Assembly (NCBI GenBank): GCA_026400815.1
Contig: JAPLOI010000063.1
Span: forward strand, 1-64,000
Origin: Alphaproteobacteria bacterium
Lineage (GTDB): Bacteria > Pseudomonadota > Alphaproteobacteria > Acetobacterales > Acetobacteraceae
Length of the DNA stretch: 64,000 bases
Direction of reading: 5' to 3'
The stretch's first letter is position 1. Each line of letters opens with the position of its first letter. The notes below the pieces were generated by a model. It did no database searches and was not told where the DNA came from. It worked only from the letters and a program-made list of their open reading frames with translations. Of this stretch, positions 4,464 to 63,003 are shown in pieces. The position numbers were made by a program, and so were the translations under genes.

Positions 4464-4467
4464 CATC

Positions 4468-14795: not shown

Positions 14796-14841
14796 AGCAA
14801 CAGCCCATCAGGCGGAATCGTCTGGTGGGCTAAAGTTGCTC
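14795..14841. repeat. Long imperfect hairpin between convergent genes
   Basis: GAGCAAC plus AGCCCATCAG (14795-14811) pairs with CTGGTGGGCT plus GTTGCTC (14822-14841) in a 17-bp stem with one G-U pair and a 3-base AAA bulge, loop GCGGAATCGT. It overlaps the acyltransferase stop codon and faces the CoA-transferase gene from the other strand. It could end both transcripts but has no T-run. It looks like an interspersed palindrome; only this copy is in the window. Confidence 0.6.
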
Positions 14842-14904
14842 GCTCAAACAAAGAGCTAGGTCGTTGGCCGACCGCCTATCAGGTTGGCTATCGCTCTAGC
14901 CGGG

Positions 14905-16153: not shown

Positions 16154-17347
16154 ATGGTGATGGACGCGGAACAGGCTGACCTGACGATGGTGCCGGCGGG
16201 CAATGACTATCCGGAGCTGCGCGAGGGTATCCAGCGCATCTGCGCGAAATATCCTGGCGAATACTGGCGCGGGCTTGAGGAGCGCGAAGCGTATCCGACG
16301 GCGTTCATCACGGAGCTGACCGAGGCGGGGTATCTGGCGGCGCTGATTCCGGAGGAGTACGGCGGGACCGGGCTGCCGCTGCGGGCGGCGGCGGTGATCC
16401 TGGAGGAGATCAATGCCTCCGGCTGCACGGCCAGCCAGGGGCATGCCCAAATGTATATCATGGGCACTTTGCTGCGGCATGGGTCGGCGGAGCAGAAGAA
16501 GACGTATCTGCCGAAGATCGCCACCGGGGAGCTGCGGCTGCAGGCCTTCGGGGTGACGGAGCCGACGAGCGGGACGGATACGACCTCGCTGCGCACGCGG
16601 GCGGTGCGGGATGGCGATTCCTATGTGGTGAACGGGCAGAAGGTTTGGACCTCGCGCGCTGCGCATTCCGATCTGCTGCTGCTGCTGGCGCGGACGACGC
16701 CGCTGGATCATGTGGCCAAGAAATCCGACGGGTTGAGCGTGTTCCTGGTGGATATGCGCGAGGCCGTTGGGAACGGGCTGGAGATCCGGCCGATCAAGGC
16801 GATGATCAACCACAACACGACCGAGCTGTTCTTCGACAATCTGCGGATTCCGGCCGATAGCCTGATCGGGCAGGAGGGCAGGGGGTTCCGGTACATTCTC
16901 GACGGGATGAATGCCGAGCGGATCCTGGTGGCGAGCGAGTGCGTGGGGGACGGGAAGTGGTTCGTGAAGAAATCCGTCGCCTATGCCAATGAGCGGCAGG
17001 TGTTCGGGCGGCCGATCGGGCAGAACCAGGGGGTGCAGTTTCCGATCGCGCGGGCCTGGGCGGAGCTGGAGGCGGCGGACATGATCTGCCGGCGGGCGGC
17101 CGCACTTTTCGAGGCCGGAAAGGACTGCGGCGCGGATGCCAACATCGCCAAAATGCTGGCGAGCGAGGCGACCTGGAAGGCGGCCGAGGCGGCGATGCAG
17201 ACGCATGGCGGGTTCAGCTACGCGCGGGAATACGACATCGAGCGGAAGTGGCGCGAGGCGCGGCTGTACCAGATCGCGCCGATCTCCACGAACCTGGTGC
17301 TGAGCTATGTGGGGCAGCATGTGCTGGGGATGGCGCGGAGTTTCTAG
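16154..17347 (+). CDS. Acyl-CoA dehydrogenase
   Basis: FAD enzyme making a 2,3-double bond in an acyl-CoA. 397 aa (ATG 16154; 16160 also possible). Seen: FGVTEPTSGTDTTSLRT, NGQKVWTSRA, the flavin segment GRGFRYILDGMNAERI, and the C-terminal QTHGGFSYAREYDIERKWREARL. The usual IYEGT motif, whose Glu is the base in medium/short-chain enzymes, reads IAPIST here, so the base must lie elsewhere or the substrate class differs. It is divergent from a CoA-transferase, and a three-stem repeat follows the stop by seven bases. Confidence 0.92.
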   Translation: MVMDAEQADLTMVPAGNDYPELREGIQRICAKYPGEYWRGLEEREAYPTAFITELTEAGYLAALIPEEYGGTGLPLRAAAVILEEINASGCTASQGHAQMYIMGTLLRHGSAEQKKTYLPKIATGELRLQAFGVTEPTSGTDTTSLRTRAVRDGDSYVVNGQKVWTSRAAHSDLLLLLARTTPLDHVAKKSDGLSVFLVDMREAVGNGLEIRPIKAMINHNTTELFFDNLRIPADSLIGQEGRGFRYILDGMNAERILVASECVGDGKWFVKKSVAYANERQVFGRPIGQNQGVQFPIARAWAELEAADMICRRAAALFEAGKDCGADANIAKMLASEATWKAAEAAMQTHGGFSYAREYDIERKWREARLYQIAPISTNLVLSYVGQHVLGMARSF

Positions 17348-17354
17348 GGAAAAA

Positions 17355-17475
17355 GAGTCTTCTTTTTCTGAAGAAAAAGAAGCAAAAAGACTTCTCTGAC
17401 TTTGCGCCCGTTTCCCCAGGGAAACCAGGCGCAAATTCACAAAAGTTTTTTGGTTCTTTTTTTCAAAAAAGAACC
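17355..17475 (+). repeat. AT-rich three-stem intergenic repeat, copy 1
   Basis: Stem A: CTTCTTTTTCT (17359-17369) with its exact complement at 17372-17382. Central stem: TTTGCGCC (17401-17408) with GGCGCAAA (17428-17435), enclosing GTTTCCC/GGGAAAC. Stem B: GGTTCTTTTTT (17452-17462) with AAAAAAGAACC (17465-17475). CAAAAAGACTT (17383-17393) can also pair with AAGTTTTTTG (17443-17452) around the centre. It starts seven bases after the acyl-CoA dehydrogenase stop. Confidence 0.85.
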
Positions 17476-17567
17476 GCTTTCTTGATTCTGTCCTCGGCTT
17501 GCCGATTTCCGTTGCGCTTCGGTGCCGTGCTGCGCTGCACTGGCGTGGGCGGATGGGAGTGCGGGGC

Positions 17568-18290
17568 ATGCGGCGGCGCGCGGTTCTGGCGGCGGGTGGC
17601 GCCTTGGCGCTGGGCGGCAGGGCGCGTGCGGAAGGGGCAGGGCCCGTCGATCTGTTGCTCGTACTGGCGGTGGATGTGAGCCGGTCCATTGACGAGGAGG
17701 AGGCGCGGCTGCAGCGCGAGGGCTACCAGGCGGCGATGATGGACCCGCAGGTGGTGGCGGCGATCACCGGGGGGCCGGCGGGGGCCATTGCGGTGGCGTA
17801 TCTGGAATGGGCGGGGATCCAGTATCAGCGGGTGGTGATCCCGTGGGTGCGGTTGGGGTCGGCGGCCGAGTGTGCTGGGTGGTCGGCGCGGTTGGGGCGG
17901 GCGTCTCGGGACAGCATGAGCTGGACGAGCATTTCCGGGGCGTTGATCGCGGCCGGGCGGGCGCTGGAGGAGTGCCCGTTTTTGGCGACGCGGCGGGTGA
18001 TCGATGTTTCCGGCGATGGGGTGAACAATTCCGGGCCACCGCCCGAGGTGATCCGCGATGTGTTGGTGCGGGATGGGGTGGTGATCAACGGGCTGCCGAT
18101 CGTGAACGACCGGCCGAATTTTGGCCGGGCGCCGGAGCAGGATCTGGAGGAGCATTATCGGGAGCGGGTGATCGGGGGCGAGGGCGCGTTCCTGGTGGTG
18201 GCGGAGGATTTCGAGAAATTCGGCGCGGCGGTGCGGCGCAAGTTGATGACGGAGATCGCGGGGGTGGCGGGGCCTGCGCGGCTAGGCTGA
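17568..18290 (+). CDS. Exported DUF1194 protein with von Willebrand A-like fold
   Basis: 240 aa from ATG 17568, chosen because it opens a clean export signal (MRRRAVLAAGGALALGGRARA); earlier in-frame ATGs (17499, 17553) would bury it. The mature part begins VDLLLVLAVDVSRSID, a MIDAS-type DxSxS metal site of the vWA fold, and continues with RRVIDVSGDGVNNSG. The family is common in alphaproteobacteria and its role is not known; the fold suggests Mg-dependent protein binding in the periplasm. It converges with the mmgE/prpD-like gene, and the ends overlap by nine bases. Confidence 0.85.
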   Translation: MRRRAVLAAGGALALGGRARAEGAGPVDLLLVLAVDVSRSIDEEEARLQREGYQAAMMDPQVVAAITGGPAGAIAVAYLEWAGIQYQRVVIPWVRLGSAAECAGWSARLGRASRDSMSWTSISGALIAAGRALEECPFLATRRVIDVSGDGVNNSGPPPEVIRDVLVRDGVVINGLPIVNDRPNFGRAPEQDLEEHYRERVIGGEGAFLVVAEDFEKFGAAVRRKLMTEIAGVAGPARLG

Positions 18291-19625
18291 CCAGAGCGGG
18301 GCGAGGGTGGCGACGTTGGGTGCGCTGTCGATGGCGGCCAGGGCGTCGCCGAGGGCCAGGGCGCGGGGGGTGCCCAGCAGGGGGGCCACCAAGCCGTCGA
18401 ACTTGGCGCGGATGCGGGTGCCCTGGTGGGAGACGCTGGCGGCGGGGATGCCGGCGTCGTGTTCGGCGCTGAGGGTAGTCTGGTCGGTGAGGCGGATGTC
18501 CATGGCGGCGTGGGTGACGCCGAAGCCGGGCTGGAGCTCGATCGTGACCTTGTCGCGGAGCGCGGTGATGCGGGGATCGGCGGCGACTTCGGCGGTGAAG
18601 CTGTCCAGCCGGCTGGTCTCCAGGCCCGCGAGCGCCATGGCGGCGGTGAGGCGGTGGGAGAACTTGGCTTCAAGGCCGGTGCGCGGGGCGGCGATGTTGC
18701 AGACGCGGTCGGTGGTTTCGTCGACGCGCAGGGTGATGGCGGCGATGCGGTCGGCGGTGAAGGCGGGGTTGGCGCGCAGGGTGCGGGCGGCTTCGATGCC
18801 GGCGTGGGTGAGGTAGCAGGCGGCGTGGTATTTGAAGAGGTTGGCGCGGATGTGCCAGCCGCCTTCGGGTTCGGCGAGGGCTGCTTCGGGGTTGAAATCG
18901 GGCGAGTGGGTTTTCGCGAAGCCTTGCGGGCATTCCAGGCTGTCTGGCCGGGCGGTGAAGCCGCGGGCGGCGAGCTTGGCGGCGAGGAGGCCGTTCTGGG
19001 CGGCCTTTCCGGCGTGCAGCGGCTTGCACATGGTGCCGAACATGGATTTGAGGCCGGCAGCCTGGGTGGCGGCGATGCCCAGGGCGTGGAGGGTTTGTTC
19101 CTCATCGAGGCCCAGCAGGTGGGCGCAGCCGGCGGCGGCGCCGAAGGTGCCCACGGTGCCGGTGGCGTGGAAGCCGACCTGTTCGTAGTGCGCGGGGGCC
19201 ATCACCGGGCCGACGCGGCAGGCGGTTTCGTAGCCGACGACGAAGGCGGCCAGCACTTCGGCCCCCGAGGCGCCGCGGGCTTCGCCGAGGGCCATGACGG
19301 CGGGCAGGATGGCGACCGTGGGGTGGCCGGGCATGGAGAGGTTGACGTCGTCGTAGTCCAGCGCGTGGGCCATGGTGCCGTTGAGCAGCGCGACGGCGCC
19401 GGCGGGCAGGCGCATTGTGCTTCCCCAGACGCTGGCCTGGGGGGTGCCGCCGGCTTCCTCCAGCTCTGCGCGCAGGATGCGGACGAGGTCGTCCTCCGCG
19501 CCGGCCATGGCGACGGCGATCGCGTCCTGCATGCATTGCCGGGCGAGGTCGCGCACTTCCGCGGGCATTGCGGCGTAGGTGAGCGCGCGGGTGCGGCGGA
19601 CGATGCTGCGGGTGAGGTCTTTCAT
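18282..19625 (-). CDS. MmgE/PrpD family protein
   Basis: 447 aa from ATG 19625 (MKDLTRSIVRRTRAL). The family includes 2-methylcitrate dehydratase (PrpD), cis-aconitate decarboxylase and many uncharacterised dehydratases. Seen: LLNGTMAHALDYDDVNLSMPGH with the conserved D-D-H region, GFHATGTVGTFGAAAGCA, and KPLHAGKAAQNG. No methylcitrate synthase or methylisocitrate lyase is nearby, so a role in propionate use is not supported; the CoA-thioester genes around it suggest another organic-acid pathway. Confidence 0.88.
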   Translation of the reverse strand: MKDLTRSIVRRTRALTYAAMPAEVRDLARQCMQDAIAVAMAGAEDDLVRILRAELEEAGGTPQASVWGSTMRLPAGAVALLNGTMAHALDYDDVNLSMPGHPTVAILPAVMALGEARGASGAEVLAAFVVGYETACRVGPVMAPAHYEQVGFHATGTVGTFGAAAGCAHLLGLDEEQTLHALGIAATQAAGLKSMFGTMCKPLHAGKAAQNGLLAAKLAARGFTARPDSLECPQGFAKTHSPDFNPEAALAEPEGGWHIRANLFKYHAACYLTHAGIEAARTLRANPAFTADRIAAITLRVDETTDRVCNIAAPRTGLEAKFSHRLTAAMALAGLETSRLDSFTAEVAADPRITALRDKVTIELQPGFGVTHAAMDIRLTDQTTLSAEHDAGIPAASVSHQGTRIRAKFDGLVAPLLGTPRALALGDALAAIDSAPNVATLAPLWSA

Positions 19626-19713
19626 GGCGCGTTCCTGTCCGGCGGGCGGCTGGGTGCCCTTTGGAATGGAGTATGCGCGACCTCGGCCCGGGCGGGAACC
19701 TCTCTGCCGGCGG

Positions 19714-19854
19714 TCAGCCCTTGACGGTTTTCGGGCCCTGCTTGGTGGCGATGGGCATGGGGCGCGGCGGGGCCGGGGGTGGGGTGTTGCTGACCGTCTT
19801 GGTGGCCTTCGGCTTCTTGGCCTCGCGGCCGCCTTTGTCCCTGCCCTTGGCCAT
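19714..19854 (-). CDS. Small lysine-rich protein (46 aa)
   Basis: Short gene encoding MAKGRDKGGREAKKPKATK, then a Pro-rich stretch and a basic end (TKQGPKTVKG). Such MAKGRDK-type highly basic small proteins occur in many proteobacteria and have no known function. The composition (Lys, Arg, Pro) suggests nucleic-acid binding or disorder, which is inference. The gene lies alone between the mmgE/prpD-like gene and the small envelope genes, all on the - strand. Confidence 0.65.
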   Translation of the reverse strand: MAKGRDKGGREAKKPKATKTVSNTPPPAPPRPMPIATKQGPKTVKG

Positions 19855-19953
19855 GGTGGTGCTCCTTCGCTGGCGCGTGCGGCGCCGAATGAGTGCCAGT
19901 GGTGCACGCTTCGGCGCCGGAATGCCAGGGGTGCTAGGGCCTGATGGTGTCCT

Positions 19954-20052
19954 TCAGGCTGGCAACGGCGTTTTGGGCCTGGCTGCTGGCAGCAGCCGCG
20001 CCGTGGCGAGCAGGAGGAGGAAGGCGACGAGAGTGTAGGCCTGGATGGTCAT
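19954..20052 (-). CDS. Possible 32-aa single-pass membrane peptide
   Basis: ATG 20052 with AAGGGAA upstream opens a 32-codon frame: MTIQAYTLVAFLLLLATARL and a short Pro/Lys tail. One hydrophobic helix fills most of it. It sits 37 bases beyond the stop of the lipoprotein gene on the same strand. The ribosome-binding site and helix support it, but a frame of this size could arise by chance. Confidence 0.35.
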   Translation of the reverse strand: MTIQAYTLVAFLLLLATARLLPAARPKTPLPA

Positions 20053-20089
20053 GGCGGTGTTCCCTTGCGATGCGCGGGGACGGGAGGCG

Positions 20090-20338
20090 TCAGCGCCAGA
20101 CGGGGGTGCCCAGGTTGATGTTGCGGTTGGTGGTGGCGGCACCGCCGACGGCACCGACGGCGCCGCCTATGAGGGCGCCGGTGCCCAGGGCGCCGCCTGT
20201 GAGTGCACTGGCGGCGACGCCGGCGCCGGCGCCGATCATGCCGCCCGAAAGAGCGCGGTCGCCGGAGGTGTTGCCGCAGCCGGCCAGGGCCAGGATGGCG
20301 ATGGCGAAGAGAAGGGTGGCGGGAAGGGCTGTTTTCAT
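20090..20338 (-). CDS. Small glycine-zipper lipoprotein
   Basis: 82 aa. Signal peptide MKTALPATLLFAIAILALAGC with lipobox LAGC (acylated Cys at about 21), then a Gly/Ala-rich segment with repeated small-residue spacing (GGMIGAGAGVAASALTGGA), a glycine zipper that may insert into or pack on membrane. It resembles small 17-kDa-antigen/osmotically inducible lipoproteins. Likely outer-membrane anchored. Function unknown. Confidence 0.8.
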   Translation of the reverse strand: MKTALPATLLFAIAILALAGCGNTSGDRALSGGMIGAGAGVAASALTGGALGTGALIGGAVGAVGGAATTNRNINLGTPVWR

Positions 20339-20526
20339 GGGATGGCTTTCAAGGAAATGACGGGGCGGATTGCCGCGCGCCCTGTGTTGAGGGCGTGTCG
20401 CCAGTCAAACCATGAAATTTGATCTGAATGGATAGGCCCGCCGTCTCGCCCCGCGTCGCAGTGGACGGGGCGGTGCACCTGGCGATTTGCCAGGGTGCGG
20501 CGTGCCGTAATCTAAGAGATGGCGAC

Positions 20527-20548
20527 GGGGTGTATGGAAATACACCCC
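20527..20548. terminator. Short GC hairpin downstream of the enoyl-CoA hydratase
   Basis: GGGGTGTAT (20527-20535), loop GGAA, then ATACACCCC (20540-20548). It lies 26 bases past the - strand enoyl-CoA hydratase stop. There is no T-run, so it may be a terminator or a 3'-end stabiliser. The rest of the 236-base gap (20339-20574) shows nothing else I recognise. Confidence 0.45.
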
Positions 20549-20574
20549 GCCCGGCCGATTTATTATGGTATGAA

Positions 20575-21375
20575 CTAGCAGCCCTTGAATACCGGCTTGC
20601 GCTTTTCGTTGAAGGCGGCGACGCCTTCGCGGCGGTCTTCGGTGGGGGGGAGGCGGTTATAGGCCTCGATCTCGAACAGCAGGGCGCTGGCCAGGTCCAT
20701 CTGCATGCCGGTGTTCACGGAATGCTTGATCTGGCGGGTGGAGAGCGGGGCGTTGCCGGCGATGCGCTGGGCGGTGGCCAGCACCTCGGCCTGGAGGGCG
20801 GCGGGTTCGCAGACCTTGTTGAGCATGCCCCATTCCAGGCCCTGCTGGGCGGTGAAGGGCAGGCCGGTGAGCAGGACCTCCTTGGCGCGCTTGATGCCGA
20901 CGGCGCGGGGCATGTTCTGGGTGCCGCCGGCGCCGGGCATGATGCCGAGCGTGACTTCCGTGAGCGCGAAGCGGGCGGTGGTGCTGGCGTAGGCGAAATC
21001 GCAGGCGAGCGCGAATTCGCAGCCGCCGCCATAGGCCGCGCCGTTGATGGCGCCGATGATCGGGATGGGGCATTCCTTCATCGCGCGCACGCCGCGCTCG
21101 AAGATCAGATGCTGGGCCTGCCATTGCGCATCCGTCATGCCGTTGCGCTGCTTGAGGTCGCCGCCGGCGCAGAAGGCTTTCTCGCCGGCGCCGGTGAGGA
21201 TGACGCAGCGATACAGGCCGGGGTCGTTGCACAGCGAGTCCCACACCGCGAGCATGTCCAGCCCCATCTGGGTGTTCATGGCGTTGGAGACTTCGGGGCG
21301 GTTGAGCGTGATGCGCAGCACGTGCTCGGCGGGTTCGTCGAGCGCGAGGGTCTCGTAGGTCTGGGTGAGTTTCAT
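20575..21375 (-). CDS. Enoyl-CoA hydratase/isomerase family protein
   Basis: Hydrates or isomerises an enoyl-CoA. 266 aa from ATG 21375 (MKLTQTYETLAL). Crotonase features: HVLRITLNRPEVSNAMN, oxyanion-hole segment EKAFCAGGDLKQRN and INGAAYGGGCEFALACD, with both acid positions present (GGCE and TEVTLGIMPGAGG), consistent with hydratase activity. It is divergent from the acyl-CoA ligase at 21461 with 85 bases between, suggesting joint control. Substrate unknown. Confidence 0.92.
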   Translation of the reverse strand: MKLTQTYETLALDEPAEHVLRITLNRPEVSNAMNTQMGLDMLAVWDSLCNDPGLYRCVILTGAGEKAFCAGGDLKQRNGMTDAQWQAQHLIFERGVRAMKECPIPIIGAINGAAYGGGCEFALACDFAYASTTARFALTEVTLGIMPGAGGTQNMPRAVGIKRAKEVLLTGLPFTAQQGLEWGMLNKVCEPAALQAEVLATAQRIAGNAPLSTRQIKHSVNTGMQMDLASALLFEIEAYNRLPPTEDRREGVAAFNEKRKPVFKGC

Positions 21376-21460
21376 GGGGCGTTTCCGTGGGCTGGGCGGC
21401 GGGCTTGGCGCGGCGACCGTACCGGCCGTAGGAAGGCGGGTCAAACGGGCGGGGCGGGCC

Positions 21461-22960
21461 ATGCCGGCGGTGAACTGGGGGCGGGAACTGGCGACCATGC
21501 GCGCGCGCTTCGGCGGGCGGGTGGCGGTGGAGGATGCGGCGGGGGCGGCCAGCTATGCCGAGGTGATCGACCGCGCGGCGGGGCTGGGGCGGCGGCTGCG
21601 GGAGGCGGGGATCGGGCCCGGCGACCGGGTGGCCACGGTGGCGCGCAACGGGCGGCTGGCGGTGGCGATCTCCTGGGGTGTGATGCTGTCGGGTGCCGCG
21701 GAGGTGCCGCTGAACATCGCCTATACCGAGGCTGAGTTCCGCGATGCGCTGGCGATTGCGGGCATACAGACAGTGGCCTGCACGCGGGAGCATGCGGCGC
21801 TGTTCCGTGATGCCGGGTGCGCGGTGCATGCGATCGAGGATCTGGGCGCTTCAGCGCTGGAGGCCGGGTTGTTTCCGAGCGTGCCGGCCGGGGCGCCGGG
21901 GCGGATCGGGTTCACCAGTGGGACGACGGGGCGGCCCAAGGCGATCGTGACCAGCCAGCGGGCGCGGTTCCTGGGGCATTTGCTGTTGCAGGCGAGCCTG
22001 CCGTGGCTGCCGGGTGCCGGGAGCCGCTGCCTGGCGATGACGCCGTTCGCGCATGGGGCTTCGTTGCAGAGCTATGCCTGGTTGAGCCAGGGCGGGACGA
22101 TGGTGCTGCATGACGGGGTGGACCCGGAGCGGGTGCGGCCGTTGCTGGCGGGCGGGTTGGAGGCGATGTTCGCCGCACCCACGGTGCTGGCCAAGCTGAC
22201 CGCGGCGTTCGCGGGGGCGGAGTTGCCGGGGCTGCGGACGATCTTCACCGGCACCGCGCCGTTGCCGCCGCTGCTGTATGGGCGGGTGCGCGGGATGTTC
22301 GGGCCAGTGGTGCGGGTGACGTACGGAAAGACCGAGGTGGTGAACCCGATCACCATCCTGCGGCCGGAGGAGACGGAGGCCTGGTACGCCGAGGGCGGCG
22401 GGGCGGATGGCGCGGCCTGCGTCGGCTGGCCGGGCCAGGGGGTGGAGGTGGTGATCGACGGCGGGGACGAGGGCGAGGTGCTGCTGCGGGCGGCGCATAT
22501 GTCCGAGGGCACGCTGGATGCCGATTTCCGCGTGGTGCCGTGGCGGGCGGATGGGTTCCATGCCACCGGGGATGTCGGGCGGGTCGATGCGCAGGGGCGG
22601 CTGCACCTGGTGGCGCGACTTTCGGATGCGATGAAGTCGGGCGGCTACAAGATCTATCCGCAGGAGATCGAGCGGGCGTTGGCGCCGGCGAGGGATGCGG
22701 TGGTGGTGGGGTTTCCCTCTGACTACTGGGGCGAGATCATCGTGGCGGTGGCCGAGGATGCGGCGCCGGGGTGGGAGGCGGCGGCGAAGGCGGCGTGTGG
22801 GGATCTGGCGCCGTTCAAGCGACCGCGCTTCCATGCCTCGGTGGCGGCGTTGCCGCGCAACGGGCAGGGCAAGGTGGTGCGGCGGTTGTTGCTGGCGGAA
22901 TTGCAGAGGCAATGGCGGCTGGTGGATGGGCCGCGGCCCGTGTTCGAGAGGATCGACTGA
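21461..22960 (+). CDS. AMP-dependent acyl-CoA synthetase/ligase
   Basis: Activates a carboxylic acid to its CoA ester via an acyl-adenylate. 499 aa from ATG 21461 (GGGGCGGG upstream; an earlier in-frame ATG at 21365 would overlap the divergent gene). Motifs: P-loop-like FTSGTTGRPKAI, YGKTE, hinge GDVGRVDAQGRLHLVARLSD, MKSGGYKIYPQEIE, and the C-terminal catalytic Lys in LPRNGQGKVVRR. It overlaps the next CoA-transferase gene by one base (TGATG), so the two are translated together. Confidence 0.93.
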   Translation: MPAVNWGRELATMRARFGGRVAVEDAAGAASYAEVIDRAAGLGRRLREAGIGPGDRVATVARNGRLAVAISWGVMLSGAAEVPLNIAYTEAEFRDALAIAGIQTVACTREHAALFRDAGCAVHAIEDLGASALEAGLFPSVPAGAPGRIGFTSGTTGRPKAIVTSQRARFLGHLLLQASLPWLPGAGSRCLAMTPFAHGASLQSYAWLSQGGTMVLHDGVDPERVRPLLAGGLEAMFAAPTVLAKLTAAFAGAELPGLRTIFTGTAPLPPLLYGRVRGMFGPVVRVTYGKTEVVNPITILRPEETEAWYAEGGGADGAACVGWPGQGVEVVIDGGDEGEVLLRAAHMSEGTLDADFRVVPWRADGFHATGDVGRVDAQGRLHLVARLSDAMKSGGYKIYPQEIERALAPARDAVVVGFPSDYWGEIIVAVAEDAAPGWEAAAKAACGDLAPFKRPRFHASVAALPRNGQGKVVRRLLLAELQRQWRLVDGPRPVFERID

Positions 22961-24195
22961 TGCTGCATCGCAGGGAATTCGAGCCCGGGGCCACGCCGCC
23001 GCTTTCGGGGCTGCGGGTGGTGGATCTGTCGCGGCTGGTGGCGGGGAACATGGTGAGCCTGCAACTGGCGGACCATGGCGCGGAGGTGATCAAGATCGAG
23101 GATCCCGCCAAGGGCGATCCGCTGCGGGCGTGGCGCACCGATGGGCATTCGCTGCACTGGAAAGTCTATGCGCGGAACAAGAAGTCCCTGGCGCTCGACC
23201 TTCGACACAAGGATGGGTTGGCGATTTTGGCCGACCTGATCGCATCCAGCGACGTGCTGATCGAGAATTTCCGGCCCGGCACGCTGGAGGCGATGGGGCT
23301 GGCGCCTGCGGTGCTGCACGCGCGCAACCCGAAGCTGATCATCGTGCGGGTTTCCGGCTTCGGGCAGGACGGGCCGTATCGGGAGCGGCCGGGCTTCGGC
23401 ACGCTGGTGGAGGGGATGAGCGGGTTTGCGGCGATGAACGGGTTCGGCGACCGCGAGCCGGTGCTGCCGCCGCTGGCGTTGGCGGACATGGTGGCGGGGC
23501 TCTACGGCGCCTTCGCGGTGATGATCGCGCGGCGCGAGGTGGAGGCAGGCAGGCCCAATGGAACAGGCAGGGGCCAGGTGATCGACCTGCCGCTGCTGGA
23601 TCCCATGATTTCGATCCTGGGGCCGCAGGCGGCGATGTTCCAGGTTTCCGGCGAGATCCCGCCGCGCACCGGCAGCCGCAGCAACACCACCAGCCCGCGC
23701 AACGTGTTCCGCACCCGGGATGGGCGCTATATCGCGATTTCCGCCTCCATCCAGGCGATGGCGGAGCGGCTGCTGCGCACCATCGGGCGGGAGGACATGA
23801 TTTCGGACCCGCGCTTTGCCAACAACACGGCGCGGGTGGCCAATGCCGCCGAATGCGAGGCGCCGATTGCCGCGTTCATTGCCGCGCGCGACAGTGCGGA
23901 GGTGCTGGCGATCTTCGAGAAGGCCGAGATTACCGCCGCACCGGTGTACGACATCGACCAGCTGATCGATGATCCCCATGTGGCGGAGCGGGAGATCCTG
24001 GTGGAGCTGCCCGACGCCGATCTCGGCCACGTGGCGATGCATGCCGTGGTGCCGCGGCTGGCGGCGACGCCGGGGGCGATCCGCTCCCCCGCGCCGGGGC
24101 TGGGGGAGCACACGGCGGAGGTGCTGCGGATGCTGGGGCGCGATGAGGCGGCGATCACGGCGCTCGCCGCCTCGGGCGCGGTGAAGCTGGGATAG
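22960..24195 (+). CDS. Class III CoA-transferase (CaiB/BaiF family), second copy
   Basis: 411 aa from ATG 22960, coupled to the acyl-CoA ligase. Seen: LSGLRVVDLSRLVAGNMVS, ENFRPGTLEAMGLAP, the catalytic Asp in LALADMVAGLYGAF, then NTTSPRNVFRTRDGRYI and GLGEHTAEVLRMLG at the C-terminus. It is clearly not a recent duplicate of the 14905-16044 gene, since the sequences differ throughout. Together with the ligase and the divergent hydratase it suggests a small degradation module for one organic acid. Confidence 0.92.
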   Translation: MLHRREFEPGATPPLSGLRVVDLSRLVAGNMVSLQLADHGAEVIKIEDPAKGDPLRAWRTDGHSLHWKVYARNKKSLALDLRHKDGLAILADLIASSDVLIENFRPGTLEAMGLAPAVLHARNPKLIIVRVSGFGQDGPYRERPGFGTLVEGMSGFAAMNGFGDREPVLPPLALADMVAGLYGAFAVMIARREVEAGRPNGTGRGQVIDLPLLDPMISILGPQAAMFQVSGEIPPRTGSRSNTTSPRNVFRTRDGRYIAISASIQAMAERLLRTIGREDMISDPRFANNTARVANAAECEAPIAAFIAARDSAEVLAIFEKAEITAAPVYDIDQLIDDPHVAEREILVELPDADLGHVAMHAVVPRLAATPGAIRSPAPGLGEHTAEVLRMLGRDEAAITALAASGAVKLG

Positions 24196-24238
24196 GGCTT
24201 CGTCTTGCGCGCGGCCACCGGCCAGCCCCGCGCGCGTG

Positions 24239-25198
24239 TCAGTAGCGCCCGTTCTCGCGCAGCATCAGCGGCACGAAGCCGAACACGCCGGGGCTGTCGG
24301 GATCGACCAGGACCTTCACCGCCTGCACCTGGGCGGCGCCGAACACCTCCAGCCGCACCACGTTCGGGATCGGCTTCAGCTTCGAATCCTTCAGCACGCC
24401 GATCTGGAACTCGTGCTCGTCGCCGTGGATCACCAGCACGGGGCCGGGGTAGTCCTTGGCGTGGCGCGCCACCGCCTCCACCGTGTCGATGAAGCCGGAG
24501 GCCGCCGGCATCACGCCGTAGGGAGTGGTGACATCCAGCGTTTGTGCCTGCCAGGAGAGCACGACGGCCTTGCTGCCGGCGGCCCGTGCGCGGGCGAAGG
24601 TGTCGTCGATCCAGGCGAGGTTGGCGGCGTTGCGCTCCAGGTATTCCTCCGCCGCGCCGGCGCGCGGTTCGAAGTTGTTGTTGCTGCCGACCACGTGGAC
24701 GGTGGCGAACATCACGCCGTTATGGCTCCAGCGCTGGTTCTCCACGAACTTGGCGAACTTGTCGGCCATGGCGCGCGACTGGCTTTCGACCGCCAGCTTG
24801 GTGCGGCCCAGCGAGGCGGTGGGCTCGGGGAAGAACATCGTGCGCAGCTTGGCCAGGCGCTCCAGCGGGTCCATCGCGCCGTTGTTGCGGCGGTGGCAAT
24901 CGGTCCATTCGTTGTCGCCGGGGGTGTAGAGCAGCGGCTGCTCGAAGGTGGCGAACTGGTCCAGCACCTTCTGGAAGATCTCGTCCGAGCACAGGGTGGA
25001 GCCGGACTTGATGTCGCCAATATGCACGGAGAAGGCGGGCTTGGTGGCGTTGATCGCGCCGATCAGGCGGTCGAACTTCGCGTAGTCGCCGGGCAGGGTG
25101 TAGGGCATGTCGCCGAGGGCGACGAAATGGAAGGGCTGGGCGGCGGCGGGGACGGCTGCGAAGGCGAGCGACGCGGCCAGGGCAAGGCGCTTGAGCAT
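24239..25198 (-). CDS. Exported calcineurin-like metallophosphatase
   Basis: 319 aa with signal peptide MLKRLALAASLAFAAVPAAA. Metal-binding blocks appear in the family order: FVALGDMPY, HIGDIKSG, YTPGDNEWTDCH (GDNE replaces the usual GNH/GNHE), and VIHGDEHEF near the C-terminus. It is probably periplasmic. No partner gene is linked to it and the substrate is unknown. The msrA gene lies upstream on the same strand, separated by a repeat element. Confidence 0.87.
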   Translation of the reverse strand: MLKRLALAASLAFAAVPAAAQPFHFVALGDMPYTLPGDYAKFDRLIGAINATKPAFSVHIGDIKSGSTLCSDEIFQKVLDQFATFEQPLLYTPGDNEWTDCHRRNNGAMDPLERLAKLRTMFFPEPTASLGRTKLAVESQSRAMADKFAKFVENQRWSHNGVMFATVHVVGSNNNFEPRAGAAEEYLERNAANLAWIDDTFARARAAGSKAVVLSWQAQTLDVTTPYGVMPAASGFIDTVEAVARHAKDYPGPVLVIHGDEHEFQIGVLKDSKLKPIPNVVRLEVFGAAQVQAVKVLVDPDSPGVFGFVPLMLRENGRY

Positions 25199-25299
25199 GT
25201 CGGGCTCCAGGATTGGGAGCCCTCACATTGCCCAAGCGGCGGCGGCGCTCAAGCGTCCCTTGAGGGTTTCATGCAATTGTCGCAGAGAGTGAAGGAAGT

Positions 25300-25421
25300 G
25301 GTTCTTTTTTTAAAAAAAGAACCAAAAAACTTTTGTCCGCTTGCACGCGTGCCGGACAGCCTGACACGCGTGCAAGCGGGAAAAGTCTTTTTGCTTCTTT
25401 TTCTTCAGAAAAAGAAGAATC
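25300..25421 (-). repeat. AT-rich three-stem intergenic repeat, copy 2
   Basis: Read on the - strand it begins six bases after the msrA stop. Stem A occupies 25394-25417 (11 bp). The central stem is a perfect 15-bp pair, CCGCTTGCACGCGTG (25337-25351) with its complement at 25365-25379, unrelated in sequence to copy 1 but in the same place. Stem B is a perfect 24-base palindrome, 25300-25323. AAGTCTTTTTG and CAAAAAACTT again flank the centre. Confidence 0.85.
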
Positions 25422-25427
25422 CTTCCC

Positions 25428-25973
25428 TTAAGCTGCCGCCGGCTTGAGCCGATCGGCGAAGCTCTTGCGGAACTTCATCACCTTCGGCGCCACCACGGCA
25501 CGGCAGTAGCCGGACCAGGGATTGCGGGCGAAGTAGTTGTGGTGCTCCGGCTCGGCCGGCCAGAACTTCGCCAGCGGCTCGATGTCGGTGACCGCCTTGC
25601 CGTCCCAGATGCCGGCGGCGTCGATCTCGGCGATCATCTTCTCCGCGGCTTCGCGCTGGGCATCGTTGTGCGTGAGGATGATGGAGCGGTATTGCGGGCC
25701 GATGTCGTGGCCCTGGCGGTCTTTCGTGGTGGGATCGTGGATGGTGAAGAAGACCCGCAGCAGGTCTTCGAAGCTGACCTCGGCGTCGTCGTAGGTGATC
25801 TGCACCACCTCGGCGTGGCCGGTGGTCTTGGCGCAGACTGCCTCGTAGCTGGGGTTTTCGACATGGCCGCCGGCATAGCCGCTCATGACCGCGCTGACGC
25901 CGCGCAGGCCGAGATACACCGCCTCCAGGCACCAGAAGCAGCCGCCGCCGAGCGTTGCGAGTTGTTGGGCCAT
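25428..25973 (-). CDS. msrA: Peptide-methionine (S)-S-oxide reductase
   Basis: Repairs oxidised methionine. 181 aa from ATG 25973. N-terminal catalytic motif GGGCFWCLEAVY with the nucleophilic Cys, then GYAGGHVENPSYEAVC, QYRSIIL, and a C-terminal SGYCRAVVAPKV whose Cys is a likely resolving residue. Length and motifs are those of a single-domain MsrA; there is no MsrB fusion. Divergent from the crotonase gene at 26044. Confidence 0.95.
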   Translation of the reverse strand: MAQQLATLGGGCFWCLEAVYLGLRGVSAVMSGYAGGHVENPSYEAVCAKTTGHAEVVQITYDDAEVSFEDLLRVFFTIHDPTTKDRQGHDIGPQYRSIILTHNDAQREAAEKMIAEIDAAGIWDGKAVTDIEPLAKFWPAEPEHHNYFARNPWSGYCRAVVAPKVMKFRKSFADRLKPAAA

Positions 25974-26043
25974 CGCGTCCTCCTGTGATTGGTCATAGGT
26001 TGGCATGGTGTGTTCGCTTGTCCAGCCGGGAGGAAGACGCCGC

Positions 26044-26814
26044 ATGGCGCAGATCGTGACAACGTTCGAGGAACGGGCAGAGGGGCGGGTGGCCCGCGTG
26101 GTGATCGACAACGCGGTGAAGCTGAACGTGCTGAATTCCGCGCTGTCTGCGGAGCTGGAGGCGGCGTTTCGCGGGCTGGCCGGTGCGCCGGGGCTGCGGG
26201 CGGTGGTGCTGGCGGGCGAAGGCGGCCGGGCGCTGATCGGCGGGGCGGATATCCGCGAGATGGCGGGGCTGACGCCGGTGACGGCGCGGGCGTTCATCAC
26301 CCAGCTGCACAATGTCTGTGGGGCGATCCGGGCGCTGCCGGTGCCGGTGATCGCGCGGATGCAGGGCTATTGCCTCGGTGGTGGGCTGGAGGTGGCGGCG
26401 GCGTGCGATATGCGCATTGCCAGCGACGATGCGGTGATGGGCATGCCGGAGGTGCGGGTGGGCATTCCCAGCGTGATCGAGGCGGCGTTGCTGCCGCAGC
26501 TGATCGGCTGGGGGCGGACACGGCGCATCCTGATGACCGGGGAGACGTTCGACGCGCAGAAGGCGCTGGCCTGGGGCATGGTGGAGGAGGTGGTGCCGGT
26601 GGCGGAGCTGGATGCGACGATCGGGCGGGTGCTGGACGACCTGCTGGCCGGTGCGCCGCATGCGCTGGCACTGCAGAAGCGGCTGATCGGCGAGTGGGAG
26701 GAGCGCGGCATGGCCGGGGCCATCGCGGCGGGGATCGATGCCTTCGCGGAGGCCTGGACCACGCCGGAGCCCGGCGCGCGGATGCGGCATTTCCTGGAGA
26801 GCAAGCGCAAGTGA
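26044..26814 (+). CDS. Enoyl-CoA hydratase/isomerase family protein, second copy
   Basis: 256 aa from ATG 26044. Crotonase motifs: RALIGGADIREMAGL (oxyanion hole), QGYCLGGGLEVAAACDMRIAS and PEVRVGIPSVIEAALL, where PS replaces the usual PGAGG. Both acidic positions (GLE and PEV) are present. The changed loop suggests a substrate other than short-chain enoyl-CoA. The stop overlaps the GTG start of the next gene (GTGA). Confidence 0.9.
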   Translation: MAQIVTTFEERAEGRVARVVIDNAVKLNVLNSALSAELEAAFRGLAGAPGLRAVVLAGEGGRALIGGADIREMAGLTPVTARAFITQLHNVCGAIRALPVPVIARMQGYCLGGGLEVAAACDMRIASDDAVMGMPEVRVGIPSVIEAALLPQLIGWGRTRRILMTGETFDAQKALAWGMVEEVVPVAELDATIGRVLDDLLAGAPHALALQKRLIGEWEERGMAGAIAAGIDAFAEAWTTPEPGARMRHFLESKRK

Positions 26815-27314
26815 AGGGCCAGCCGCCGCCGTTCCGGGCGCAGGGTTGGCCCGGCCTGCGCGATGTGGCCGCGATGGCCTTCACGATGGTGCTGCTGCTG
26901 GCCTGGTTGCTGGCATTGGCGGTGGCGTGGCGGCACTGGACCACGCGCAGCGACCTGGAATCCATCGTGCTGCTTGTGCTGGCCGCCGGGGTGGTGGGGA
27001 TGGGCGTTAGCTTCGTGCGCGCCGTGCACCGCCACCGCCTGCGCTGGGTGACGCTGGTGCAGCGGGGGGAATGGCGGCAGGCGACGGTGGTGGAGATCGC
27101 CCGCGGGTTCGATCCGCGCGGGATCGAGATCGGCGTGCCGTATCGCTGGATCGTCACTGCCGCGGCGCCGGGGCCGGACGGGGTGGAGCAGACATTCCAG
27201 TCCGCCCCGGTGCGGCGGTTGCGCGATGTGCGCGACCTGATGGGCAAGCGCGTGTGGGTGCGGGTGGATCCGGCCGACCCTTCCTGCCACGTGCTGCTGC
27301 CGATCCTGGCCTGA
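26811..27314 (+). CDS. Two-helix membrane protein, DUF3592-like
   Basis: 167 aa from GTG 26811, overlapping the preceding stop. Two hydrophobic helices (AFTMVLLLAWLLALAVAW and SIVLLVLAAGVVGMGVSFV) are followed by a soluble beta-rich domain with the sequence RGEWRQATVVEIARGFDPRG, PYRWIVTA, GKRVWVRVDPADPSCHVLLP, which resembles DUF3592 proteins. Function unknown. Coupled to the crotonase gene by overlap only; a functional link is not evident. Confidence 0.75.
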   Translation: MKGQPPPFRAQGWPGLRDVAAMAFTMVLLLAWLLALAVAWRHWTTRSDLESIVLLVLAAGVVGMGVSFVRAVHRHRLRWVTLVQRGEWRQATVVEIARGFDPRGIEIGVPYRWIVTAAAPGPDGVEQTFQSAPVRRLRDVRDLMGKRVWVRVDPADPSCHVLLPILA

Positions 27315-27321
27315 ATCGAAA

Positions 27322-27348
27322 CGCCCCGCCGGAGGGTCCGGCGGGGCG
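27322..27348. terminator. GC-rich hairpin between convergent genes
   Basis: CGCCCCGCCGG (27322-27332), loop AGGGT, then the exact complement (27338-27348). It sits eight bases after the DUF3592-like stop and 18 bases beyond the TRAP gene end on the other strand, so it can serve both. The T-tract is absent. Confidence 0.7.
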
Positions 27349-27365
27349 CATCGTGGGTGGCGCGG

Positions 27366-28463
27366 TCAGATCCGGTTGGCGGCGGACTGGCGGGCCATGA
27401 AGGTGTCGAAGCTGCCTTCGGCGACGCGGAACCACAGCACCTGCTCGCGGCGGAAGGCCATGTAGTGGTCGTGGACCTTCTTGAAGCGCGGGTTGGCGGC
27501 GCAGGTCTCGGTATAGAGTTCCTGGGCGGCGTTGAAGCAGGCTTCCAGCACCGGCGCCGGGAAGGGCGAGAGCTTGGTGCCGTTGGCGACCAGTTCGCGC
27601 AGGGCGCGGGGGTTCTGGGCGTCGTACTTGGCGACGGACCAGGCGACGGTTTCGCCGGCCGCGACCTCGATGGCGTTGCGATACACCTCCGGCAGCGTGT
27701 CGATTGCCTTCTGGTTGACGAACAGCGAGAGCGCCGCGCCGCCTTCCCACCAGCCGGGGTAGTAGTAGAACGGTGCGACCTTGTTGAAGCCGAGCTTCTG
27801 GTCGTCGTAGGGGCCGACCCATTCGGCGGCGTCGATGATGCCCTTTTCCAGCGCCGGGTAGATGTCGCCGCCGGCGATCTGCTGGGCGACGACCCCGAGC
27901 TTGGCCAGCACCTGGCCGGCAAAGCCGCCGATGCGCATCTTGAGGCCCTTCAGGTCCTCAACGGTCTTGATCTCCTTGCGGAACCAGCCGCCCATCTGCG
28001 CCCCGGTGTGGGAGAGGGTGTAGGAGGTGATGTTGTAGTCCTTGTAGAACTCCCGCATCAGCTCCTGCCCGCCGCCATGGAACACCCAGGCATTGTGCTG
28101 GCGGGTGTTGAGGCCGAAGGGCACGGCGGTGTCGAAGGCGAAGGTGGGGTCCTTGCCGACATAGTAGTAGGGCGCGGTGTGGCAGCATTCCACGGTGCCG
28201 TTCTGCACCGCATCGAGCGCCTGCAACGGCGGCACGATCTCGCCACCGGCGAACACGCGGATCTGGAACTTGTTGTCGGTCAGCTGGGCCACGCGGCGGG
28301 CGAAGTGCTCGCCGGCGCCGTAGATGGTGTCCAGGCTCTTGGGGAAGCTGGAGGTGAGGCGCCACTTGATTTCGGGCAGGCCCTGGGCGAGCGCGGGCGC
28401 AGCGAGCGTGCTGGCCGCGACGGCGCCGAGCCCGGCGCGGCGAATGGCGGAACGGCGGTTCAT
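27366..28463 (-). CDS. TRAP transporter solute-binding protein (DctP family), copy 1
   Basis: Periplasmic binding protein for carboxylate-type solutes. 365 aa from ATG 28463. Tat-like signal MNRRSAIRRAGLGAVAAS ending near APALAQ; then WRLTSSFPKSLDTIYGA, TAPYYYVGKDPTFAF, and the ligand-Arg segment LKGLKMRIGGFAGQ. The membrane partners DctQ and DctM are not in the window. It is very similar over its whole length to the next gene upstream, pointing to tandem duplication. Confidence 0.93.
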   Translation of the reverse strand: MNRRSAIRRAGLGAVAASTLAAPALAQGLPEIKWRLTSSFPKSLDTIYGAGEHFARRVAQLTDNKFQIRVFAGGEIVPPLQALDAVQNGTVECCHTAPYYYVGKDPTFAFDTAVPFGLNTRQHNAWVFHGGGQELMREFYKDYNITSYTLSHTGAQMGGWFRKEIKTVEDLKGLKMRIGGFAGQVLAKLGVVAQQIAGGDIYPALEKGIIDAAEWVGPYDDQKLGFNKVAPFYYYPGWWEGGAALSLFVNQKAIDTLPEVYRNAIEVAAGETVAWSVAKYDAQNPRALRELVANGTKLSPFPAPVLEACFNAAQELYTETCAANPRFKKVHDHYMAFRREQVLWFRVAEGSFDTFMARQSAANRI

Positions 28464-28634
28464 GCGTGTCCCTCGCGGCGGGTGCCGCGATCCCTGCAAG
28501 GTGCCCTTTGGGTTAGGGCACTCCGATGATGGCCCGTCAGGCCGCCGCCGTGGTTCGGCGGGCGGTCCCGGACGCCAGGATCATATCATTCCCGGTGCGG
28601 CAGGTGAATACATTCTGCAATAAAGGGGCACGAT

Positions 28635-28660
28635 GGCCCCGCGCCGGGTGGCGCGGGGCC
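28635..28660 (-). terminator. GC-rich hairpin between the two TRAP genes
   Basis: GGCCCCGCGCC (28635-28645), loop GGGT, exact complement (28650-28660), nine bases beyond the stop of the upstream TRAP gene on the - strand, followed there by a weak CCCCTTTATT. It suggests that the two copies are at least partly separate transcripts. Confidence 0.65.
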
Positions 28661-28668
28661 GCTTCAGG

Positions 28669-29766
28669 CTAGAGGCGATTGGCGGCGGACTGGCGGGCCA
28701 TGAAAGTGTCGAAGCCGTTTTCCGCCACGCGGAACCACAGCACCTCCTCCGCGCGGAAGGCCATGTAGCTGTCGTGGACCTTCTTGAAGCGCGGGTTGGC
28801 GGCGGAGGTTTCCGCGAACACTTCCTTCGCGGCGGCGAAGCTGGCTTCCAACACCGCGGCGGGGAAGGGCACCAGCTTGGTGCCGCCGGCCACCAGCTCG
28901 CGCAGGGCGCGGGGGTTCAGCGCGTCGTACTTGGCCAGGGTCCATTCCGTGGCCTCGGTGCAGGCGGCCTGCAGGATGGCGCGGTAGCTTTCCGGCAGTG
29001 CCTCGAACGCCTGCAGGTTCACGAACAGGCTGAGCGCGGCGCCGCCCTCCCACCAGGCGGGGTAGTGGTAGAACGGGGCGACCTTGGCGATGCCGAGCTT
29101 CTGGTCGTCGTGCGGGCCGACGAACTCCATGGCGTCGATCGTGCCCTTTTCCAGCGCGGAATAGACCTCGCCGGCGGCGAGCTGCTGCGGCAGCACGCCG
29201 AGCTTCTGCATCACCTGCCCGGCAAAGCCGGCGATGCGCATCTTGAGGCCCTTGAGGTCGTCCAGCGACTTGATTTCCTTGCGGAACCAGCCGCCCATCT
29301 GGGCGCCGGTGTGGCCCATTTGGAAGGCCGTGGTGTTGTAGGACTTGTACAGCTCGTCCAGCAGCTCCTGCCCGCCGCCGTGGCGCAGCCAGGCGGTGTG
29401 CTGGCGGGTGTTGAGGCCGAAGGGCACGGCGGTGCCAAAGGCGAAGGTCGCATCCTTGCCGATGTAGTAGTACGGCGCGGTCTGGGCGCATTCCACGGTG
29501 CCGTTCTGCACCGCATCCAGCGCCTGCAGCGGCGGCACGATCTCTCCGGCGGCGAAGGTGCGGATCTGGAAGCGGTTGTCGGTCATCTGTGCGACGCGGC
29601 GGGCCAGGAACTCGGTGGCGCCGAACAGCGTGTCGAGGCTCTTGGGGAAGCTGGAGGTGAGGCGCCATTTCACCTCTGGCAGCGGCGACTGGGCGAGCGC
29701 GGGGCGGGACAGGGTTGCGGCAACGGCGCCGACGGCACCGGTGCGGACGATCTGGCGGCGATCCAT
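28669..29766 (-). CDS. TRAP transporter solute-binding protein (DctP family), copy 2
   Basis: 365 aa from ATG 29766 (MDRRQIVRTGAVGAVAAT, signal ending near RPALAQ). Same blocks as copy 1: WRLTSSFPKSLDTLFGA, TAPYYYIGKDATFAF, LKGLKMRIAGFAGQ, and an almost identical C-terminus FDTFMARQSAANR. Differences cluster in the middle (EFVGPHDDQK against EWVGPYDDQK; CTEATEW against AGETVAW), so the ligands may differ. There are no DctQM genes here; the pair must use membrane subunits encoded elsewhere. Confidence 0.93.
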   Translation of the reverse strand: MDRRQIVRTGAVGAVAATLSRPALAQSPLPEVKWRLTSSFPKSLDTLFGATEFLARRVAQMTDNRFQIRTFAAGEIVPPLQALDAVQNGTVECAQTAPYYYIGKDATFAFGTAVPFGLNTRQHTAWLRHGGGQELLDELYKSYNTTAFQMGHTGAQMGGWFRKEIKSLDDLKGLKMRIAGFAGQVMQKLGVLPQQLAAGEVYSALEKGTIDAMEFVGPHDDQKLGIAKVAPFYHYPAWWEGGAALSLFVNLQAFEALPESYRAILQAACTEATEWTLAKYDALNPRALRELVAGGTKLVPFPAAVLEASFAAAKEVFAETSAANPRFKKVHDSYMAFRAEEVLWFRVAENGFDTFMARQSAANRL

Positions 29767-29873
29767 GGTCGGGACATCTCCTTGCAGCGGCTCACACACG
29801 GAGCCGCCGCAGGGATTAGGGATGTTTGGCGGCGCGATGAAGGGGCTGGCACGGCGCCAGCCATGCGTGCGCG

Positions 29874-30440
29874 TCAGCCGCCGGCGGGGGTGGGGGCGCC
29901 GAGCCCGGCCAGCGCCGCCGCAAGCACGGCGCCCGCGGGTTGGCCGCCATCGAGGCGCAGCACGGCGCAGGGCAGGGCGGCCAGCCAGGCGAGGTGGCGC
30001 GCAAGGCTGCGTTGGCTGGTGCCGGCGGAGTCGTAGCTCTCCGCCCAGGCCAGGAACTCCTGGCTGCCGGCGTGCATGTCTCCACCCGGGGCGATGCGGG
30101 GACCGAAGCGCGCCGCCTCCCGCGCGCGCAGGCGGTCCATGCGGGCTTGCTGGGGCACGTGCAGGAAGATCTCCGTGCCGATGCGCTTCGCCAGTGGGTC
30201 GCCCCAGCCATCGAGCGAGCCGGAGAGCACCCAGCCCACCTCGTCGTCCAGCGCGCGGGCGAGGCGGTCCAGGCGGTCCGGCATCGGGCGGGGGGTGACG
30301 TAGGCGGGGTTGGTCGGCAGCCAGAAATAGCTGTCGGTGTCATGCCAGGGCACGCCGAGCCGGCCGGCCAGTGCTGCGCCCAGGGTGCTGGTGCCGCTGC
30401 CGGAGGCGCCGGTGATGTGGATGCGTGGGCGCTGGGCCAT
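29874..30440 (-). CDS. P-loop kinase-like NTPase (adenylate/shikimate kinase fold)
   Basis: 188 aa from ATG 30440. Walker A GASGSGTST at residues 10-18, then DTDSYFWLPTNPAY and a lid-like Arg-rich segment (QQARMDRLRAREAARFG). It resembles small P-loop kinases annotated as adenylate-kinase-like or AAA-family proteins in this group; substrate unknown. Divergent from mobA with 53 bases between. Confidence 0.75.
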   Translation of the reverse strand: MAQRPRIHITGASGSGTSTLGAALAGRLGVPWHDTDSYFWLPTNPAYVTPRPMPDRLDRLARALDDEVGWVLSGSLDGWGDPLAKRIGTEIFLHVPQQARMDRLRAREAARFGPRIAPGGDMHAGSQEFLAWAESYDSAGTSQRSLARHLAWLAALPCAVLRLDGGQPAGAVLAAALAGLGAPTPAGG

Positions 30441-33209: not shown

Positions 33210-33321
33210 AGTCTTCTTTTTCTGAAGAAAAAGAAGCAAAAAGACTTCATCCATTTGCGCCGTGGCTAGCCCCGGCGCAAACGAACAAAAGTTTTTTGGT
33301 TCTTCTTTTCAAAAAAGAACC
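33210..33321 (+). repeat. AT-rich three-stem intergenic repeat, copy 3
   Basis: It fills the gap between two convergent stop codons (rhodanese 33206; ABC-F 33324). Stem A 33213-33236 (11 bp), central stem TTTGCGCC (33254-33261) with GGCGCAAA (33274-33281) enclosing GGCTAGCC, stem B 33298-33321 with one mismatch (C in the T-run). CAAAAAGACTT and AAGTTTTTTG flank the centre as in the other copies. Confidence 0.85.
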
Positions 33322-33323
33322 GC

Positions 33324-57675: not shown

Positions 57676-57843
57676 GTCTTCTTTTTTCCGAAGAAAAAAG
57701 AAGCAAAAAAGACTTTATTTGTTGGTGGCGGGGTGGAGGATCGGGCGATGGGGGATGTGGCGCGGTGGATTGCTCCGCTGCGCTCGCAATGACGGGACAG
57801 CAAATTTCCAAAAGTTTTTTGGTTCTTTTTTTCAAAAAAGAAC
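57676..57843 (+). repeat. AT-rich three-stem intergenic repeat, copy 4 (enlarged centre)
   Basis: Stem A 57678-57703 (11 bp, CTTCTTTTTTC type), flanking GCAAAAAAGACTT, then about 90 bases of centre, then AAAAGTTTTTTGG and stem B 57822-57843 (10 bp). The centre carries ATTGCTCCGCTGCGCTCGCAAT (57769-57790), related to GCAATCC/ATTGCGAGC-type repeats common in many genomes. Here the B end, not the A end, adjoins a stop codon (GST gene, 13 bases away). Confidence 0.8.
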
Positions 57844-62877: not shown

Positions 62878-63003
62878 TCTTCTTTTTCTGTAGAAAAAGA
62901 AGCAAAAAGACTTTCATTTGTTGGCGCCGGGTCTGGCCAGGCCGGCACGCGTGACAGCGAATGAAGTTTTTTTGCTTCTTTTTGTTCACAAAAAGAAGAG
63001 TCT
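62878..63003 (+). repeat. AT-rich three-stem intergenic repeat, copy 5 (variant B stem)
   Basis: Stem A 62879-62902 (11 bp), then CAAAAAGACTT. The centre has TTCATT/AATGAA at its base and a GC-rich interior. AAGTTTTTTTG leads into a variant B stem CTTCTTTTTGT (62975-62985) with ACAAAAAGAAG (62988-62998), 11 bp, which resembles stem A rather than the usual GGTTC type. It ends eight bases before the EamA start codon. Confidence 0.8.

Follow-up and report, generated by a model that had tools for sequence, protein, structure and literature searches.

Five AT-rich sequences, each lying close to a stop codon, interrupt the 64,000-nucleotide stretch of Acetobacteraceae DNA analysed here (the window), and they raise the question of what a repeat of this kind does behind genes. 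The original prediction, made from the letters of the window, left two possibilities side by side: a mobile palindromic element, or a 3'-UTR/terminator module. The anatomy of the copies, their placement, their pairing and their fate in related genomes were analyzed, and the two ideas are weighed against these results below.

Anatomy of the five window copies

All five copies were present at the positions first reported for them (Table 1). The element is one imperfect palindrome about 120 letters long, composed in order of a purine-rich linker, an AT hairpin A (CTTCTTTTTC-TGAA-GAAAAAGAAG), the inner arm CAAAAAGACTT, a variable centre that is usually a hairpin, the inner arm AAGTTTTTTG, an AT hairpin B (common form GTTCTTTTTTTCAAAAAAGAAC) and a pyrimidine-rich linker. 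The inner arms were confirmed, by reading and by the model structure, to be complementary with a bulged G. Unlike in the outer plan first proposed, copy 5 carries a different B hairpin, the CTTCTTTTTGTTCACAAAAAGAAG variant. The distances to the stop codons, counted from the stem base, were 11, 10, 6 and 3, 13, and 5 nt; these lie within a few nt of the earlier values, since the start of the element can be set differently.

Table 1. Coordinates of the element copies in the window and of the parts of copy 1.
Feature	Position	Strand	Basis or context
Element copy 1	17359..17475	+	Sequence; 11 nt past stop of acyl-CoA dehydrogenase gene 16154-17347
Copy 1, stem A	17359-17382	+	Sequence
Copy 1, inner arm CAAAAAGACTT	17383-17393	+	Sequence
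Copy 1, central region	17394-17442	+	Sequence
Copy 1, inner arm AAGTTTTTTG	17443-17452	+	Sequence
Copy 1, stem B	17453-17475	+	Sequence
Copy 1, putative U-tract for + transcription (TTTTTTGGTTCTTTTTTT)	17446..17463	+	Inferred from hairpin plus U-tract architecture
Copy 1, putative U-tract for - transcription (CTTTTTGCTTCTTTTTCTT on minus strand)	17371..17389	-	Inferred
Element copy 2	25301..25417	-	Stem A toward stop of msrA-like gene (minus strand, 25428-25973)
Element copy 3	33213..33320	+	Between convergent genes; orthologous site exists in relatives
Element copy 4	57678..57843	+	Stem B toward stop (57857) of GST-like gene (minus strand, 57857-58501)
Element copy 5	62879..62997	+	5 nt past stop of ADH-like gene (61854-62873)

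When up to three mismatches were allowed, GAAAAAGAAGCAAAAAGACTT matched the window five times, on the stem-A side of copies 1, 2, 3 and 5 and, backwards, on the B side of copy 5; copy 4 was missed because of its longer A/T run. The scan with AAAGTTTTTTGGTTCTTTTTT gave four matches (copies 1–4). Neither half-motif matched the shuffled sequence, and both are thus far above chance. The neighbour of copy 2 was recognised as msrA-like by its Pfam PMSR match, and copy 3 is flanked by a rhodanese-domain gene (stop ends 33206) and by an ABC ATPase gene on the minus strand, whose stop is at 33324.

Fold z-scores from -4.1 to -10.6 were obtained for six of the seven sequences folded (copy 1, -5.5 on the plus and -6.2 on the minus strand; copy 2, -10.6; copy 5, -7.9), the seventh, a cut piece of copy 4, reaching -1.9. 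The closed three-stem structure that had been proposed is the minimum-energy fold of copy 2, in which three hairpins are closed by an outer stem. It was not seen in all folds: copy 5 formed a single long hairpin, and copies 1 and 3 adopted partly different pairings on the plus strand.

Placement at gene ends and terminator-like features

The strict pattern had 96 exact matches in the host genome (5.1 Mb), and its reversed control had none genome-wide. A half-motif scan using the consensus of the strict pattern, with mismatches allowed, was performed on 464 kb of this genome (tiles of C31, C42 and C40 plus the window) and yielded 39 copies, of which 29 have the two end hairpins and 10 are partial; by extrapolation, the genome would hold some 400 to 430. 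Genes were called with a home-made caller trained on the window, which was also applied to other genera.

In the 464 kb, 15 copies were convergent, 23 tandem and one divergent, a distribution different (p 4e-7) from that of the element-free gaps of at least 50 nt (16 convergent, 117 tandem and 52 divergent). The element had been said always to follow a stop codon. A facing stop within 25 nt was found for 36 of the 39 copies; the three without one are the divergent copy and two of the partial copies. Copy 4 turns its B side toward its gene. The median distance of the 53 facing stops was 10 nt, with 41 of them within 15 nt. None of the 39 copies in the 464 kb fell within a called gene, and one overlapped a gene end by 14 nt.

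The same placement was observed in a wider set of 161 unique elements, in which inner-arm identity is by construction because the loci were picked by the strict inner-arm pattern. These comprised 66 convergent, 87 tandem (43 and 44 in the two orientations) and three divergent copies, one within a called gene and four at edges. Here a facing stop lay within 15 nt on 94 of 109 A sides and 98 of 110 B sides, at a median of 6 nt from the stem base. Placement was looser in the other genera (57 elements; 26 convergent, 27 tandem, 4 divergent), where 44 of 79 facing stops lay within 15 nt and 56 within 25 nt. Both Pseudoroseomonas plasmid copies with RefSeq annotation agreed with gene-end placement, one lying between two convergent CDS, 3 and 8 nt from their ends, and the other 5 nt after a tandem CDS end. 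Random placement relative to genes was therefore not seen, and the copies concentrate at gene ends.

The stop codons adjoining the element were also unusual. In the 464 kb, TAA was used at 30 of 51 such stops (e.g. window 25427, 33206, 33323 and 62873), at 27 of 141 element-free operon ends and at 15 of 215 other stops; in the wider loci the figures were 93/185 beside elements versus 64/596 elsewhere. That the element brings its own TAA stop was considered and rejected as a simple explanation, TAAG being present at 90 of 195 stop-facing element boundaries versus 15 of 105 other boundaries.

Whichever strand is read, the central hairpin is followed by a U-tract supplied by the 5' arm of the far hairpin. 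One fixed score, considering only hairpins of up to 44 nt, rated 33 of the 44 element-facing gene ends in the 464 kb as terminator-like, and a T-run of at least 5 was present at all 44. The same score was reached by 10 of 78 element-free convergent ends, by 2/60 (gap over 100), 2/55 (40–100) and 0/153 (rest) element-free tandem ends, and by 3 of 578 random positions. The element family was thus the source of 33 of the 47 terminator-like ends in the sample; 13 element-free terminator-like ends were listed, three of which are element parts further away. Eleven of the 44 element ends failed the score, among them ends at window copies 1, 2 and 4, and these count against a terminator reading. The remaining gene ends presumably depend on Rho or other means. 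Divergent placement was rare in every set (1/39 in the 464 kb, 3/156 placed elements in the wider set, 4/57 in the other genera). Of the two ideas first put forward, the terminator module is well supported by its position, by the hairpin plus U-tract on both strands and by the rarity of divergent copies, and the mobile element only in part.

Other repeated sequences were noted close to the element. The enlarged centre of copy 4 contains a second repeat, GATTGCTTCGCTNCGCTCGCAATGACG (window 57768-57794); it occurs four times in the 464 kb, each time in or at most about 60 nt from a copy of the element, and is placed as if inserting there. The palindrome GGCGGGTCGCGAAGCGGACCCGCC was found twice in the 464 kb, in L185 near 18927 (C31 118927) and L196 near 2828 (C42 122828), both within about 60 nt of a partial element. 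Another repeated terminator-like sequence, CTTTGTTTGAGCGAGCAA ... GATGGGCT, lies on the minus strand at window 14801-14904 and recurs near 110750 in C42 and near 125760 in C31.

Covariation, spread and turnover

In alignment A1 (48 sequences of the close set) the arms hardly varied, with two double-change cells, and since covariation there is uninformative a cross-genus set, A3, was needed. A3 (57 matches, 56 distinct) contained 30 double-change cells in six pairs and all three helices, against a shuffle mean of 3.4 with none of 500 shuffles reaching 30; it was fitted to the model, and its cells count sequences, not events. Against arm pairing, one inner pair was broken in 9 of the 56 sequences. 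Every model match was also found on the opposite strand with a lower score, as expected of a palindrome. In 41 of 120 centres (3.9 expected) the 5' half paired better with its own partner than with any of 30 swapped partners, and the median fold z of the centre was -3.0 (n = 122). The central region thus changes fast yet tends to keep its pairing, part of which template-switch correction of palindromes could yield without selection.

The strict pattern was present in 32 of 299 family genomes, including all eight of the host genus. Model R1 matched 60 of 200 family genomes and 36 of the 102 family genera sampled (E at most 1e-4). At 1e-6 it matched 69 of 299 genomes in the order sample and 2 of 385 in the class sample, and every genome matched belonged to Acetobacteraceae. 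In these searches 8–16 candidates were scored per genome under strict filters, so that copy numbers are lower bounds and diverged copies may escape. Carriers among the matches listed were Rhodovarius, Pseudoroseomonas, Roseomonas and Rhodovastum, together with metagenome-assembled genomes labelled Acetobacteraceae, Rhodospirillales, Proteobacteria or Asaia. The E. coli genomes searched contained no match to the element.

Some variants are shared across a genus, as judged from 57 high-scoring hits with few per genus. All eight sequences of g56 share an inner and stem-B change, also seen in g76, and the common closing pair of stem A was absent from all eight of g96. On these few sequences, the variants point to concerted evolution. 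The likeness of the arms exceeds what a terminator requires, which counts against a terminator reading.

Nine host sites were compared with four relatives, and in 27 readable comparisons the element was present in 22, reduced to a remnant in two and absent in three. In relative G244, near-identical arms enclose an unrelated centre at C40_16337, and only a fused A/B hairpin is left at C40_15055. Among the readable relatives at the rhodanese/ABC site (copy 3), five have the element, two of them with a damaged A, and two lack it, their stops being 4 nt apart or overlapping. Behind msrA, it was present in three of seven relatives and absent in four. In a member of the family (L170, genome G013), an msrA homologue has one TAA within the matched stretch.

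The element was also found on phage contigs. On viral contigs the B module was seen in 30 stretches; of its 38 instances, 18 include an A half by the test used, and others have visibly shortened A halves; some of these contigs may contain host DNA. In one of them, copies lie behind genes with matches to tail sheath and baseplate wedge families. An exact B module also stands behind a GC stem unrelated to the element family in a Microviridae record flagged as unverified. This arrangement favours a terminator; that the stem ends about 10 nt before the B module and its T-run counts against one. Matches to 24 of 26 plasmid records covered only about a quarter of the query (e.g. Bacteroides, 28%) and were taken as chance.

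This turnover could be the mark of a chiefly non-autonomous mobile palindromic element, REP- or MITE-like, that builds up behind stop codons because insertion there does no harm, any termination being a by-product. Such a repeat could leave numerous near-identical copies together with partial ones and forms in which both ends carry a stem-A-like hairpin, and the rhodanese/ABC site, filled in some relatives and empty in others, and the copies in phage contigs can be read in the same way. Yet no clear target-site duplication is visible at the few empty sites read, namely rhodanese/ABC (two genomes), msrA (four genomes, with diverged flanks) and C40_16337 (G171), and no RAYT link was found in the one genome searched, the sole Y1_Tnp match of the host having no B motif in its 3336-nt locus. 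Retention of the element in most of the 27 comparisons, the U-tracts on both strands and the tight spacing to the stops also speak against it, and we regard a chiefly mobile element as unlikely. A TA duplication of IS630 type was hinted at by the rhodanese site but not by msrA (TGA in two of four filled alleles), and was set aside. What stood of the proposed mobility is turnover and exchange, seen as presence and absence, half-elements, replaced centres and phage copies; no clear target-site duplication was seen at these empty sites, and no Y1 transposase link in the one genome searched.

Proposed explanation and comparison with known systems

The element is probably, with fairly high confidence, a standardised and concertedly evolving bidirectional intrinsic (Rho-independent) terminator at gene ends, a role read from its sequence and position. 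RNA polymerase, coming from either strand, would first make the short AT hairpin just past the stop codon and then the long central hairpin, before reaching the U-rich 5' arm of the far AT hairpin, where it would pause and release. The near hairpin would be the complement of the U-tract used in the other direction. The copies would be kept alike by ectopic recombination or copying, and the central stem would drift and tend to keep its pairing. The partial copies (10 of 39), the three of 39 without a facing stop within 25 nt, the looser placement in the other genera and the relatives lacking the element count against a terminator.

The near hairpin could also fix a distance. The central hairpin starts a median of 32 nt past the stop codon on A sides and 30 nt past it on B sides, and this distance is 27 nt or more on 92 of 96 A sides and 75 of 97 B sides. 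For the E. coli terminator tR2, Li et al. (PMC4824070) measured almost no activity when it stood a few nt behind a stop and close to full strength once the distance exceeded 27–30 nt. By analogy, the end hairpins may double as spacers between stop codon and central hairpin, 30–32 nt being enough, by these E. coli data, for a stopped ribosome to leave the folding of the central hairpin free.

The same closeness to stops, with the stem base at a median of 6 nt in the wider set, could instead belong to an mRNA 3'-end stabiliser or a translation-linked element resembling the REPs found within 15 nt of stops; REPs fewer than 16 nt from the stop reportedly lower translation (PMC12306157), and the folds of the element are stable. 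U-tracts on both strands, the use between convergent genes and the microvirus B module behind another stem fit this poorly, and such a role in place of termination is very unlikely, although it may exist in addition. Also very unlikely is a site that acts at the level of DNA, as an uptake signal, nucleoid or gyrase site or cruciform, and that gene ends tolerate; it would suit the near-invariant arms, the full palindrome and the genus-wide variants, but not the 0 of 39 copies inside called genes in the 464 kb, uptake signals being usually present in coding DNA as well.

Returning to the bidirectional terminator, a broader scenario can be offered tentatively and at less than even confidence: most intrinsic termination in these genomes may have been taken over by a former or still active selfish, copy-spreading palindrome, also carried by phages and now the standard two-way terminator of this lineage, with end hairpins as ribosome-clearance spacers and exchange keeping the copies uniform. 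Terminators are normally regarded as independent, unrelated hairpins, whereas most of the recognisable intrinsic terminators in 464 kb of this GC-rich genome appear to come from a single repeat family. The stop-to-hairpin distance near 30 nt on both sides would make ribosome–terminator spacing testable with hundreds of natural replicates, and the family would likewise make testable how a repeat is domesticated into the core gene-expression machinery. It would also provide Acetobacteraceae with a ready stock of compact two-way terminators, and gene ends could be annotated by a simple rule.

No described repeat or terminator family corresponding to the element was found in Rfam 15 or in the open-licence literature, where strings of its sequence matched no papers. 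At gathering score, the sole Rfam match in the window was the serC leader (4415-4468), and a relaxed search of 16800-33800 gave matches far below gathering scores. MITEs of the Correia/RUP type are short, palindromic and copied, and sometimes act on transcript ends; the element would share these features but shows no clear TA duplication at the sites read and ends in variable purine/pyrimidine linkers instead of fixed inverted repeats. REP/BIME elements share with it their rarity between divergent genes. Like the element, they are, according to PMC12306157, high-copy intergenic palindromes behind stop codons, from which the AT-rich three-hairpin plan with U-tracts differs.

The uptake signal of Neisseria and Haemophilus is short and also occurs singly in genes. 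The element has long AT-rich arms and a variable stem, and single copies in genes, common for uptake signals, were found in none of 39 cases in the 464 kb and in one of 161 in the wider set. The likeness, as given in PMC1852404, is that uptake-signal repeats in these two genera build terminator stems from a sequence repeated genome-wide. With bidirectional intrinsic terminators the element shares a hairpin followed by a U-tract on both strands, common to convergent genes. Intrinsic terminators within one genome are usually unrelated in sequence, whereas here a single family with near-invariant arms accounts for most terminator-like ends of the sample, and each A/U tract forms a local hairpin of its own.
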